Shown here in pieces: positions 32,118-53,037 of a stretch of 64,000 nucleotides of DNA (its first letter is position 1; the number at the start of each line of letters is the position of its first letter). The translations under genes and the position numbers were made by a program. Source of the DNA: Pseudomonas asiatica (GTDB lineage: Bacteria; Pseudomonadota; Gammaproteobacteria; Pseudomonadales; Pseudomonadaceae); contig NZ_CP157874.1 in NCBI RefSeq assembly GCF_040214835.1, positions 5,482,501-5,546,500 on the forward strand, read 5' to 3'. Under the pieces are notes generated by a model that was not told the origin of the DNA, made no database searches, and worked only from the letters and a program-made list of their open reading frames with translations.

Positions 32118-32182
32118 GCCCAGCGTTTTTTGGTCCGCCGGACCTGCGTGCAATCCACTCCCAACCTGGACACCGAAAAGCC

Positions 32183-34636
32183 TTGATACGTCTGCTGAAG
32201 TTCTTCTGGTGGTCTTCCGTCGCAGTCATCTGCGCGCTCGTACTCGGTGTGAGCGGTGCGTTTCTGTATCTTAGCCCCAGCCTGCCCTCGGTCGAGTCGC
32301 TCAGAAGCATCCAGTTGCAGATCCCCCTCAGGGTGTACAGCAGCGACGGCAAGCTGATTGCCGAGTTCGGCGAAATGCGCCGCTCGCCGATCCGCTTCGC
32401 GGAAATTCCCCCACAATTCATCCAGGCGCTTCTGTCGGCCGAGGACGACAATTTCCTCAACCACTATGGTGTCGACCCCAGCAGCCTGATGCGCGCCGCG
32501 ACCCAGCTGGTCAAAACCGGCCATATCCAGACCGGCGGCAGTACCATCACCATGCAGGTGGCGAAGAACTTCTTCCTCACCAGCGAGCGCAGCTTCTCGC
32601 GCAAGACCAACGAGATTCTGCTGGCCCTGCAGATCGAGCGCGAGCTGACCAAGGACGAGATCCTCGAGCTGTACGTGAACAAGATCTACCTGGGCAACCG
32701 CGCCTACGGTATCGATGCCGCCGCGCAGGTGTACTACGGCAAGTCGATCCGCGACGTGAGCCTGGCGCAGATGGCGATGATCGCCGGCCTGCCCAAGGCA
32801 CCATCGCGCTTCAACCCGCTGGCCAACCCGGTGCGCGCCAAGGAGCGCCGCGACTGGATCCTCGGCCGCATGTACAAGCTTGGCAAGATCGACGAAGCCA
32901 GCTACCAGGCAGCCCTGGCCGAGCCGCTCAACGCCAGCTACCACGTGCCCACGCCTGAAGTGAATGCGCCTTACATCGCCGAAATGGCCCGCGCCGAAAT
33001 GGTCGGCCGCTACGGCAGCGACGCCTACACCGAAGGCTTCCGCGTCACCACCACGGTGCCCAGCGACATGCAGGAAATGGCCAACAAGGCCATCCTCAAC
33101 GGCCTCTCCGACTACGATGAGCGCCACGGCTACCGCGGCCCCGAAGCACGCTTCCCGGGCCGCACCCAGGCGGCCTGGCTGCAGGAACTGGGCAAGCAGC
33201 GCAGCCTTGGCGGCCTGGAGCCGGCCATCGTCACCCAGGTCGAAAAAACCGGCCTCAAGGTGCTGACCCGCAGCGGCCAGGAAGAGCTGGTAGCCTGGGA
33301 CACCATGAAATGGGCGCGCCCGTTCATCAATAGCAACTCCCAGGGCCGTGCGCCGCAGTCGCCGGCAGACGTGGCCCAGGTCGGCGACCTGGTGCGCCTG
33401 CAGCGCCTGGAGGATGGCAAGTTCAAGTTCAGCCAGGTGCCTGGCGCGCAGAGTGCGCTGGTCACCCTCGACCCTTACAACGGCGCCATCCGCGCCCTGG
33501 TCGGCGGCTTCTCGTTCGAGCAGAGCAACTACAACCGCGCCATGCAGGCCAAGCGGCAGCCAGGCTCGAGCTTCAAACCGTTCATCTACAGCGCCGCCCT
33601 GGACAGTGGCTACACCGCATCCAGCCTAGTCAACGATGCACCGATCGTGTTCGTCGACGAGTACCTGGACAAGGTCTGGCGACCGAAGAACGACACCAAC
33701 ACCTTCCTTGGCCCGATCCGCATGCGCGAAGCGCTGTACAAGTCGCGCAACCTGGTGTCGATCCGCCTGCTGCAGGCCATGGGCGTGGACCGCACCATCG
33801 ACTACATCGCCAAGTTCGGCTTCAACAAGCAGGACCTGCCGCGCAACCTGTCGCTGGCACTGGGCACCGCCACCCTGACCCCGATGGAAATCGCCACAGG
33901 CTGGAGTACTTTCGCCAACGGCGGCTACAAGATCACCCCGTACCTGATCGATCGCATCGAAAGCCGCAACGGCGAGACGCTGTTCACCGCCAACCCGGCC
34001 CGGGTACCGCAGGGTGCCGAGGACCAGGCAGGTGTGGCCGCGCCCGAACAGCCGATCAGCACCGCCGCCATGCCGGGCGAGGCACCCGCAGCCTTCAGCC
34101 AGGTGGCGCCTGCACCGCAGGTGCCGGCCGTGGCCGAGCAGATCATCGACGGGCGCACCACCTACATCCTCACCAGCATGCTGCAGGACGTGATCAAGCG
34201 CGGTACCGGCCGCCGGGCGCTGGCCCTGGGCCGCACCGACCTGGCAGGCAAGACCGGTACCACCAACGAGTCCAAGGACGCCTGGTTCTCCGGCTACAAC
34301 GCCGACTACGTGACCACCGTGTGGGTCGGTTTCGACCAGCCCGAAACCCTTGGTCGCCGCGAGTACGGCGGCACCGCGGCACTGCCGATCTGGATGAGCT
34401 TCATGGGCGCGGCACTCAAGGACAAGCCTGCGCATGCGCCGGCAGAGCCGGAAGGCATCCTCAGCCTGCGCGTCGACCCGGTCAGCGGCCGTGCCGCTTC
34501 GCCGAGCACACCGAATGCCTACTTCGAGCTGTTCAAGGCCGAAGACTCGCCGCCGTCGGTGGACGAACTGGGCACTGGCGCAGCACCGGGCAGCCCGTTG
34601 CCGGCGGATGAAGCGGCGCCGATGGATCTGTTCTGA
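32183..34636 (+). CDS. ponA: Penicillin-binding protein 1A
   Basis: Bifunctional peptidoglycan synthase of the inner membrane. The 817-aa protein has a membrane anchor (about 10-30), a GT51 glycosyltransferase domain with catalytic Glu87 in SAEDDNF, an OB-like insert, and a transpeptidase domain with active Ser462 in SSFK and the KTGTTN box near residue 690. The start is TTG at 32183, giving the family N-terminus MIRLLKFFWW. It is divergent from pilM, the conserved pseudomonad arrangement, and ends at a REP and shared terminator. Confidence 0.97.
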   Translation: MIRLLKFFWWSSVAVICALVLGVSGAFLYLSPSLPSVESLRSIQLQIPLRVYSSDGKLIAEFGEMRRSPIRFAEIPPQFIQALLSAEDDNFLNHYGVDPSSLMRAATQLVKTGHIQTGGSTITMQVAKNFFLTSERSFSRKTNEILLALQIERELTKDEILELYVNKIYLGNRAYGIDAAAQVYYGKSIRDVSLAQMAMIAGLPKAPSRFNPLANPVRAKERRDWILGRMYKLGKIDEASYQAALAEPLNASYHVPTPEVNAPYIAEMARAEMVGRYGSDAYTEGFRVTTTVPSDMQEMANKAILNGLSDYDERHGYRGPEARFPGRTQAAWLQELGKQRSLGGLEPAIVTQVEKTGLKVLTRSGQEELVAWDTMKWARPFINSNSQGRAPQSPADVAQVGDLVRLQRLEDGKFKFSQVPGAQSALVTLDPYNGAIRALVGGFSFEQSNYNRAMQAKRQPGSSFKPFIYSAALDSGYTASSLVNDAPIVFVDEYLDKVWRPKNDTNTFLGPIRMREALYKSRNLVSIRLLQAMGVDRTIDYIAKFGFNKQDLPRNLSLALGTATLTPMEIATGWSTFANGGYKITPYLIDRIESRNGETLFTANPARVPQGAEDQAGVAAPEQPISTAAMPGEAPAAFSQVAPAPQVPAVAEQIIDGRTTYILTSMLQDVIKRGTGRRALALGRTDLAGKTGTTNESKDAWFSGYNADYVTTVWVGFDQPETLGRREYGGTAALPIWMSFMGAALKDKPAHAPAEPEGILSLRVDPVSGRAASPSTPNAYFELFKAEDSPPSVDELGTGAAPGSPLPADEAAPMDLF

Positions 34637-51189: not shown

Positions 51190-51516
51190 ATGGATCTGGT
51201 ACTTGATCTGCTCGCGACGGTTTCTCGCTGGAGCCGCAGCAACCTGTCGGAGATTTCACTGGCCTTGGTAGGCTGCCTGCTGGTGCTGTTCGGCACCGAT
51301 ATCAAGGGCTGGGTGGAACAGCGCCTGGGCGGCCTGGCGGGCGCCCTGCGCGTACCGTTCATGGCTTTGCTGGTGATGATCGGCAGCGGTGCGGCGCTGA
51401 TCTATGCCACGCCTTGGGTGGTGAAAGGGCTGAGCCAGTTCAACAACTACGCGCTGGCGCCAGTGTTGCTGGTAGTACTGGTGCTGATCGGGGTGGTGGC
51501 GGATCGACGGGGCTGA
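51190..51516 (+). CDS. DUF3392 membrane protein
   Basis: A 108-aa protein with three hydrophobic stretches (about 22-40, 56-74, 84-104), matching DUF3392, a pseudomonad family of unknown role found after hemW. The ATG at 51190 follows TAAGGATGACCC. It ends the long plus-strand series starting at yggS. Confidence 0.87.
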   Translation: MDLVLDLLATVSRWSRSNLSEISLALVGCLLVLFGTDIKGWVEQRLGGLAGALRVPFMALLVMIGSGAALIYATPWVVKGLSQFNNYALAPVLLVVLVLIGVVADRRG

Positions 51517-51538
51517 GCCACGGCCTTGCACTGAACCT

Positions 51539-51653
51539 TGCAGGAGCGGCCTTGTGTCGCGATGGGCCGCAAAGCGGCCCCAACAATTGCTGCCTCACCG
51601 CTGACATCCTGGGGCCGCTACGCGGCCCATCGCGACACAAGGCCGCTCCTACA
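51539..51653. repeat. REP pair, family B
   Basis: GCAGGAGCGGCCTTGTGTCG and its near complement around 51627-51651 face each other about 60 bp apart, with GGGCCGC hairpins inside each unit. After DUF3392. Confidence 0.88.
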
Positions 51654-51690
51654 ATGACCGCGTAATCTGGCGAGTACAGAGATGGGTTGT

Positions 51691-51719
51691 AAAAGCTGCC
51701 CCGGCGAACCAGGGCAGCC
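51691..51719 (-). terminator. Terminator-like hairpin on the minus strand
   Basis: GCTGCCC and GGGCAGC pair around an 10-base loop, followed on the minus strand by TTTTAC. It would end a leftward transcript covering the 36-aa ORF. Confidence 0.55.
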
Positions 51720-51737
51720 CTACCACCTGACTAGCCC

Positions 51738-51848
51738 TTACTGGACATCATCGAAGTGATCGCGCATGAAGTCCCGAACGGTCTTGAGCACAGTCAAGAT
51801 CCGGATGAACGTCCAAACGCGGCTCAGCGCATCAAGCAAACGCTTCAT
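51738..51848 (-). CDS. Possible 36-aa amphipathic peptide
   Basis: A small minus-strand ORF with features of a real gene: ATG preceded by CGGAGGCC, a length of 36 codons, and a terminator hairpin starting about 20 bp after the stop. The peptide begins MKRLLDALSRVWTFIRILTV and ends in an acidic tail (HFDDVQ); the first 25 residues could form a basic amphipathic helix. No family is recognised. It could be a membrane-active peptide, a toxin, or a leader. Its start overlaps the stop of a 68-codon ORF (51845-52051) that itself covers the RNA-like copy, so at most one of those readings is right. Confidence 0.35.
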   Translation of the reverse strand: MKRLLDALSRVWTFIRILTVLKTVRDFMRDHFDDVQ

Positions 51849-51914
51849 ATGCCTTGGCCTCCGTGTTGGCGGGCCAATCTTCCAGCATCTAACCGGTACT
51901 TCGATGCCTTCGAA

Positions 51915-51998
51915 AACTGTGTGAGAGTCTTCTGTGAAGTGGCCAGGTCAATGGCCCTTCGAAGAGGTGCACCGGCACGGTTCTCAGGCCGTGTCGAA
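51915..51998 (+). ncRNA. Diverged copy of the candidate small RNA
   Basis: The first 24 bases match the 5' end of the RNA at 52171 at 22 positions. A hairpin CTTC-TGT-GAAG (51929-51939) replaces TTTC-TGT-GAAA of the other copy, a compensatory change. A second stem, anchored by CCTTCGA and TCGAAGG, carries the same loop TTCTCAG (51981-51987). There is no convincing promoter or terminator, so this copy may be inactive or part of a longer transcript. Confidence 0.4.
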
Positions 51999-52135
51999 GG
52001 GGCCGGAAAGCAGAATTCTTCTCCTACCCGGCCCATCACTGATTCATCCACACAGGAGCAGCGCGATGATACTTGGAATGCTCACCCAAGACTGTTAACC
52101 GCTCCGACACACGTGATGCCGGATATTTCTGAGCA

Positions 52136-52165
52136 TTGACGTTCCCCCGCTACGCTGCCTATGAT
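52136..52165 (+). promoter_or_regulatory. Sigma70-type promoter of the candidate small RNA
   Basis: TTGACG (52136-52141) and TATGAT (52160-52165) with an 18-bp spacer; each differs from consensus by one base. Transcription should begin near 52171. Confidence 0.65.
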
Positions 52166-52170
52166 CAGCC

Positions 52171-52266
52171 AACTGTGTGAGGGTTTTCTGTGAAACCTCA
52201 GAGCGAAGGATTCTCAGTCCTGTCGCTCACATAAAAAAACCGCCCTTCTCAAGGCGGTTTTTTTTC
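52171..52266 (+). ncRNA. Candidate small regulatory RNA of about 95 nt
   Basis: A compact unit: promoter, about 62 nt of structured sequence and an intrinsic terminator. The 5' part holds a hairpin built on GTTT and AAAC around TCTGTG (52183-52197). Next comes GAGCGA-AGGA-TTCTCAG-TCCT-G-TCGCTC (52201-52228), a 10-pair stem with the loop TTCTCAG. The loop can pair with GTGAG near the 5' end, so a pseudoknot is possible. There is no ORF with a ribosome-binding site. It does not match PrrF or Crc-type RNAs as I recall them; no Rfam search could be run. Confidence 0.55.
52233..52265. terminator. Bidirectional terminator (small RNA / trmB)
   Basis: AAACCGCC and GGCGGTTT pair around an eight-base loop with seven or more A or T residues on both sides. 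It can end the plus-strand RNA and the leftward thiS-thiG-trmB transcript, 50 bp after the trmB stop. Confidence 0.9.
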
Positions 52267-52314
52267 GCCTGCATTTCTGCAGGCATCGGCATATCGAAAG
52301 GCCGTATCAGCCGG

Positions 52315-53037
52315 TCAATCCACCTTCTCGAACTTCAAATCCCAAACCCCGTGCCCCAGCCGCTCGCCACGGCGTTCGAACTTGGTGATCGGGCGTTCTT
52401 CCGGGCGTGGCACGTAAGTACCGTCGGCCGCACGGTTGCGATAGCCCGGGGCAGCGCTCATCACTTCCAGCATGTACTCCGCATACGGTTCCCAGTCGGT
52501 GGCCATGTGGAACACGCCACCGGGCTTGAGCTTGCGCCGTACCAGTTCGGCGAACTCCAGCTGGACGATGCGGCGCTTGTGGTGGCGCGCCTTGTGCCAT
52601 GGGTCGGGGAAGAACAGCATCAGGCGGTCGAGGCTGTTGTCCGCCACGCAGCGGTTCAGCACTTCGATGGCATCGCAGTCATATACCCGCAGGTTCTTCA
52701 GGCCCTGGGTCAGCACGCCGTTGAGCAGCGCGCCAACACCCGGGCGGTGTACTTCCACACCGATGAAGTCCTGTTCAGGCGCGGCAGCAGCCATTTCCAG
52801 CAGGGAATGGCCCATGCCGAAGCCGATCTCCAGGGTGCGCGGCGCCGAGCGGCCGAACACCTGGTCGTAGTCCACCGGGCTGTCGGCCAGCGGCAGGATG
52901 TACAGCGGGCCGCCCTGCTCCAGGCCACGTTGCTGGCCTTCGGTCATGCGCCCGGCGCGCATCACGAAACTCTTGATGCGGCGGTGCGGGCGGGCTTCGC
53001 CGTCGGGGGTGATCGGCGTATCGTGCGATTCAGTCAT
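52315..53037 (-). CDS. trmB: tRNA (guanine-N7-)-methyltransferase
   Basis: Makes m7G46 in tRNA using SAM. The 240-aa protein has the SAM-binding [15 protein letters not shown] and the family signature [24 protein letters not shown] 53037 lies nine bases after the thiG stop. It is the last gene of the thiS-thiG-trmB unit, ending at the bidirectional terminator. Confidence 0.96.

Follow-up and report, generated by a model that had tools for sequence, protein, structure and literature searches.

The peptides of type I toxin-antitoxin (TA) systems are usually, though not universally, hydrophobic or transmembrane, and in ShoB-OhsC, for example, a short peptide is accompanied by an antisense sRNA. 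In the divergent type I systems, pairing between the two RNAs is limited to 18-21 nt (PMC3919570). The ZorO-OrzO system of E. coli O157:H7, in the parts of the published account drawn on here, involves a divergent sRNA that pairs over 18-19 nt with the toxin mRNA, its 5' end being sufficient; the units are tandem duplicates in which a variable stretch, V1, sets the specificity, and the toxin is a 29-aa peptide (PMC3919570). In TisB-IstR-1 of E. coli, which likewise has a divergent layout (PMC3919570), the excerpted accounts describe a small sRNA that pairs far upstream of a sequestered ribosome-binding site (PMC7708055, PMC11264685), with standby about 100 nt upstream (PMC7708055). For Pseudomonas, the corresponding excerpts report TA systems almost exclusively of type II among 339 P. 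syringae genomes surveyed, with a type I system, hok-sok, predicted in P. syringae DC3000 (PMC8790059), and a P. putida study whose 13 TA loci were drawn from the type II database TADB2 (PMC7280312).

Here we describe a locus in a 64,000-nt stretch of the Pseudomonas asiatica genome (the window), at which a predicted plus-strand sRNA faces the putative minus-strand mRNA of a peptide predicted to be helical, and which we consider with good confidence to be a divergent type I TA system. A first-pass annotation had proposed an unannotated trans-acting sRNA next to trmB. Its coordinates were correct for the sRNA, and left out a partner gene at about 51691-52071. Gene names such as trmB and hemW are presumptive, taken from that annotation or from general background.

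The sRNA unit and the facing peptide gene

A sigma-70 scan of 51500-53000 lists a single site, the sRNA promoter TTGACG-N18-TATGAT at 52136-52165 (+), which matches 10/12 and lies where the first-pass annotation had placed it. This promoter alone is weak evidence, because shuffles give 0.4 +/- 0.7 sites. The same arrangement, with a TTG[A/C] -35 element, a 17-18-nt spacer and a -10 element 2-9 nt before the repeat described below, is found in 113/117 of the relatives' loci, compared with 1.6 in shuffles. Just 5' of the -35 element is a GATATTTC block (52122-52129), which recurs in many P. putida-group copies and is absent from the aligned plasmid copies.

The sRNA, the predicted antitoxin RNA, spans 52171-52266 (+) with a predicted +1 at 52171-52172, as delimited by its fold, its relatives and R1, a covariance model built from 36 sRNAs, that of the window included. 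In the window's genome R1 gives 102.5 bits at the sRNA, followed by 34.3 bits on the opposite strand of its terminator and then 30.7. The unit had been described as about 95 nt with hairpins and an intrinsic terminator, a description borne out by folding of 52172-52266 (-37.4 kcal/mol, z = -4.95, equalled by 0/200 shuffles), with a predicted central hairpin at 52201-52228 (+) and a terminator stem-loop at 52233-52264. The stem of the terminator pairs 52233-52244 with 52253-52264, a perfect inverted repeat of 12 nt with T runs on both strands, and the terminator is possibly bidirectional; trmB is convergent with the sRNA, with its stop codon ~50 nt away, and the terminator could double as that of trmB on the minus strand. 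A terminator scanner lists none around the unit, because its rule missed the A/T-extended stem. Scored over 36 relatives with a structure set by hand, the terminator stem is paired in 97.7% of cells and the central hairpin in 80.2%, the latter with both-sided changes in 8/11 pairs. RNAalifold retains only 6 pairs on the sRNA alignment (A3), and two of five measures of the hand-set structure give no clear win over shuffles (both-sided changed pairs, 42/500; further pair types, 489/500). The 5' end or seed (52171-52194, +), which is hypervariable among relatives, is predicted to be more open than the remaining sRNA in 103/114 loci.

The unit had been said to hold no ORF, and it contains no plus-strand ORF of at least 20 codons. 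A GTG ORF of 567 codons does start at 52177 (+), exits through the terminator and continues opposite trmB and the next gene; we take it as spurious. Nor had the RNA been recognised as a known one, in agreement with Rfam, which at gathering score has no family in the window's unit or in the 12 relatives searched. The sub-threshold matches at the unit include AgrB (25.2/40 bits) and RNAI (RF00106, plasmid copy control), the latter set aside at 28.2 bits with a gathering score of 47. The sole gathering-score Rfam match in the window is asponA (antisense to ponA; 32162-32455, -, 159.2 bits).

Facing the sRNA, a 36-codon ORF at 51738-51848 (-) encodes the predicted type I toxin MKRLLDALSRVWTFIRILTVLKTVRDFMRDHFDDVQ. 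Differences by codon position are 2560/1362/3918 among 36-codon ORFs (n = 33) and 1006/1310/3453 among 32-codon ORFs (n = 57), and synonymous:nonsynonymous single changes are 3163:2118 and 2793:1256, respectively (counted in ORF pairs at least 75% identical); from this third-position and synonymous excess we conclude that the ORF encodes a real protein. AlphaFold2 predicts a single helix (residues 2-35, mean pLDDT 84.7, 21 rows). The helix is charged and mildly hydrophobic (GRAVY 0.01, best 19-residue mean 1.13), less so than in classical transmembrane type I toxins, with an unexceptional helical moment (127/1000 shuffles as high) and a net charge of +2 (mean +2.9 over 86 distinct peptides). 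Peptide length is 31-36 aa in 114/117 repeat-bearing loci, the remaining three being disrupted and reading longer. Searches returned no Pfam or NCBIfam family for seven peptides, no PADLOC or PHROGs match for three peptides each, and no credible sequence relative in the PDB (best E 1.1). Just downstream of the gene lies a 45-nt inverted repeat (51538-51654, 93% complementary), which we take to be REP-like; sub-threshold Rfam miRNA matches at 51544-51647 reflect this palindrome and were discarded.

For the toxin mRNA, alignment of relatives suggests a putative -10 element TATCAT at 52066-52071 (-) and a start near 52059; TA...T-type hexamers occur at this place in many of the aligned rows listed, with no good -35 element. 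A predicted terminal hairpin followed by UUUU (51691-51721, -) is its putative terminator. The Shine-Dalgarno sequence GGAGG (51858-51862, -) ends nine nt upstream of the ATG and overlaps a predicted TTGGCC/GGCCAA stem (51854-51877; 51872-51877 with 51854-51859). An SD-like motif is present in 105/114 loci, with a mean paired probability of 0.67.

The two genes are connected by a direct repeat. A repeat search found 52171-52194 to be 22/24 identical to 51915-51938, with both differences G-U compatible; the first 24 nt of the sRNA can therefore form a gap-free 24-bp duplex with the peptide mRNA leader, predicted to contain 22 Watson-Crick and 2 G-U pairs. The putative antitoxin target site (51915-51938, -) is located 67-90 nt upstream of the AUG. 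Its predicted openness is 0.38 vs 0.36 for the rest of the leader (higher in 70/114 loci), and since the target is barely more single-stranded than the remaining leader, leader folding gives no support to the standby step discussed below.

Relatives in genomes and on plasmids

A blastn search of plasmids matched the layout on NAH7, pDR208 and pTR_2_37, where the repeat differs from that of the window, reading AGTGACTGTATCTAGTGGAA with a single-letter change on pTR_2_37, and both copies are identical within each plasmid. Plasmid copies are mostly on plasmids typed conjugative, and 8/9 plasmid records have no annotated gene at the place of the peptide. A 32-codon relative of the peptide without the paired repeat is present on pSTY-type plasmids (L005, L006), where it may be decayed or under other control. 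No viral or phage carriage was found in viral contigs searched with the profile A2 or in phages searched with the NAH7 peptide alone.

In genome records, a related-locus search yielded 34 loci, nearly all titled Pseudomonas. The first set comprised 73 places, reduced to 51 distinct loci, of which 47 have the paired repeat; the others (L005, L006, L043 and L060) were kept in later counts as failures. Within the mutually overlapping loci L007-L062, all but L030 and L031 are flanked by TrmB, by a 108-aa gene beside a HemW-like gene, or by both, and neither occurs in the flanks of the plasmid loci and L063-L068. The presence of the unit and its partner gene on plasmids and at loci without flanking trmB shows that it is not merely the trmB 3' region. 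Two loci are from records titled Pantoea (L041) and Streptomyces (L064). The L041 TrmB is 96% identical to that of the window, suggesting that this record is probably a mislabelled Pseudomonas assembly; L064 is perhaps one likewise.

The P0001 search matched 25/298 genus genomes, and profile A2, derived from it, found no genome but that of the window in a class set of 274. The covariance-model search suggested with the first-pass annotation was run with R1 and located sRNA relatives in other pseudomonads, matching 211/298 genus genomes at E <= 0.001. Since scores of about 30 bits are also reached away from the locus in the window's own genome, not all of these can be called members, and membership was counted through peptide matches instead. 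Among 40 stretches fetched from R1 matches, 27 reach the repeat-score threshold of 11, and many of these encode different peptides of 31-33 residues, most of which have RD in the tail; 13 score below, including two (L134, L144) that resemble ordinary ends of genes followed by a terminator. The peptide profile A5 matches 89/298 genus genomes (30%, partial matches included; up to three matches per genome), 4/119 genomes in the family sample, all of the window's genus, and in the class sample the window's genome only (n = 252; 0/251 others). An R1 match of at least 30.9 bits is present in 55/57 peptide-found loci (the 61 loci L146-L206 minus L149, L170, L171 and L181, places already present) and in neither L201 nor L206, a count that is not fully independent, as R1 had already pointed to some of these genomes and A5 includes R1-derived peptides. 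The wider set has 129 rows, one of them a duplicate (L061), giving 128 distinct loci, with the window's locus collapsed with a near-identical one.

Tandem copies of the unit are present among the relatives. Three loci (L176, L187, L195) each contain two same-strand R1 matches above 35 bits, possibly an orphan antitoxin beside a complete module, and L143 seems to have an sRNA but no peptide gene to go with it. In several P. putida-group loci (L020 and L032, also L141 and L142) the ORF is cut by a TGTGGGAGCGGG-type sequence, presumably a REP element, and L029 and L060 are placed with them by a shared CGSG reading. Pairing is intact despite the cut ORF in L020, L029, L032 and L141. In L142, near 1207, the leader is joined to the sRNA body and both promoters are gone, as if the stretch from one repeat to the other had been deleted, apparently a natural recombination scar.

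Conservation and turnover of the paired repeat

A paired repeat of 16-28 nt occupies the same place in 117/128 distinct loci, with 235-428 bp between the copies; the other 11/128 fall below the score threshold of 11 (387 dinucleotide shuffles give a 99th percentile of 9.6 and a maximum of 13.0). The 117 loci contain 105 distinct sRNA-side sequences and 106 distinct pairs, in which 2147 positions are identical, 86 G-U-compatible, 22 opposite transitions and 32 transversions. Differences between the copies thus lean to G-U in the mRNA:sRNA orientation (86 vs 22, p = 4e-10 ignoring relatedness; as the loci are related, such p-values are optimistic).

For 97 distinct anchored pairs (from the 117 loci before collapse), cognate pairing is 18.9/20 vs 11.9 for non-cognate combinations; the codes are not all orthogonal, since 319/9312 non-cognate combinations reach at least 18/20. 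In the first set (39 distinct pairs), cognate duplexes pair 20.3/22 and non-cognate ones 13.8 (highest of 10000 permutations, 16.2); the top-scoring non-cognate partner of a target still reaches 19.95 on average, because close relatives share codes. In 13 groups with an identical peptide but different pairs, the values are 19.3/20 for cognate and 15.7 for non-cognate pairing. Ten pairs of mutual nearest neighbours, with 86-99% identity around the ORF, provide 220 columns, of which 136 are the same, 42 have both-sided changes that keep the pairing in both sisters, 14 are one-sided G-U changes, 19 are one-sided with loss of pairing, and 9 are both-sided and unpaired in one or both; the latter two counts are inflated by the fixed 22-nt frame, which sometimes overruns the duplex.

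Self-sequestration of the mRNA 5' end was considered separately. In 46 P. putida and plasmid loci the own value is 9.34 and the permuted mean 7.15 (0/20000 as high), and comparison within identical toxins in 98 wider loci gives 17 up and 12 down (one being the wrongly anchored duplicate of L061). The 46-locus signal is confounded by relatedness and weak in the wider set, and the idea stays tentative.

Interpretation and comparison with described systems

A two-gene anatomy, pairing and its co-variation, a promoter at the repeat, a terminator and selection on the ORF are all apparent in these loci. Antisense control of the peptide appears close to certain, and the two genes very likely make up an unannotated toxin-antitoxin unit with the sRNA as its antidote. 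As expected for type I TA, the sRNA can pair with the toxin mRNA, as judged by sequence only, and the peptide has fewer than 60 residues (36 aa). In the mechanism that we propose, the sRNA (52171-52266, +) would be transcribed from its own promoter and its 5' end would pair with the peptide mRNA leader, 67-90 nt 5' of the AUG. Because the Shine-Dalgarno sequence is predicted to be locked in a short stem, translation probably needs upstream loading of the ribosome (standby); the sRNA would cover this standby region, leaving the duplex open to RNase III and keeping the peptide off. Were the sRNA lost or outpaced, through some presumed trigger, the peptide would be made and probably act on the membrane. 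We infer its toxicity from the behaviour of the module: plasmid copies, tandem copies and broken peptide genes are features known for TA modules, and were counted in favour of one.

The same pairing could control a non-toxic small protein, regulatory or membrane-associated and kept low under most conditions. We give this a small chance, on account of the modest hydrophobicity and many charges of the peptide and the long time for which it has stayed next to trmB in genomes of the P. putida group, although plasmid carriage, tandem copies, recurrent ORF disruption and a pairing code that changes rapidly all fit a TA module better. A plain trans-acting sRNA that regulates several mRNAs of the chromosome, the repeat being incidental, is highly improbable, as the 5' end of the RNA is strongly variable and co-varies with the adjacent leader, and the RNA occurs together with the peptide gene on plasmids. 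The conserved body and the predicted promoter and terminator of its own suit such an RNA, and to this extent the first-pass annotation was right in calling an sRNA unit; the adjacent 36-codon partner gene and the hypervariable recognition end, which seems to argue against a conserved set of distant targets, make a free-standing trans-actor a poor description. Slimmer still is the chance that no RNA pairing is involved and that the two copies matter as DNA, either because gene conversion homogenises them or because they are sites of recombination or protein binding. They are indeed direct repeats 235-428 bp apart, and L142 resembles a deletion between them, but neither the one-sided G-U bias (86:22) nor the location of one copy at the promoter +1 in 113/117 loci is expected under conversion.

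In our reading, these loci form a new type I TA family that spans the genus and whose pairing codes are private and hypervariable. Tentatively, and with rather less assurance, we suggest that in this multi-copy family most loci have their own sRNA-target code, diverging much faster than the peptide, and that selection favours antitoxins that spare neighbouring, plasmid-borne and incoming copies, in a lock-and-key race among selfish modules. In the open-licence literature we recognised no paper describing the sRNA-peptide family, which may be described elsewhere and is unnamed as far as we found. A type I candidate peptide in 30% of sampled genus genomes would stand against Pseudomonas TA surveys centred on type II. 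The 105 natural sRNA-side sequences on one scaffold are a ready data set for the evolution of sRNA-target specificity, and also bear on how many RNA pairs can coexist. On NAH7 and other plasmids the loci are candidate stability modules, and the family adds small-protein genes that are mostly unannotated on plasmid records.

The Pseudomonas loci have a divergent, non-overlapping layout, unlike hok-sok, in which Sok and its target overlap in cis. Their layout corresponds to the divergent subclass that includes TisB-IstR, ShoB-OhsC and Zor-Orz, with repeats of 16-28 nt in 117/128 loci. As in TisB-IstR-1, a divergent sRNA pairs far 5' of a sequestered ribosome-binding site, here as read from sequence and predicted folds. 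SOS control through LexA, a TisB-IstR trait, was rejected for the toxin promoter: unlike in TisB-IstR-1, the exact LexA-like box (CTG-N10-CAG) is not enriched (6/118 rows vs 9.2 expected). DinQ-AgrB (RF02891; PMC3567139, in excerpt) likewise combines an antisense sRNA with a short peptide, but differs on the RNA side, where the comparison was made, in that the AgrB match stays below gathering score (25.2/40 bits). Sequence relatedness to Zor-Orz was not found, the OrzO-P Rfam match reaching 20.8/60 bits in the terminator part and the peptides being judged by the Pfam and NCBIfam searches. In organisation, the Pseudomonas loci resemble ZorO-OrzO, as far as the excerpted account of that system goes, in the divergent sRNA, the short 5'-end pairing, the tandem copies, the variable specificity region and the small peptide; they differ in that the variation spans most of the seed, compared with 3 nt in ZorO-OrzO, and in their occurrence in many genomes and on plasmids.
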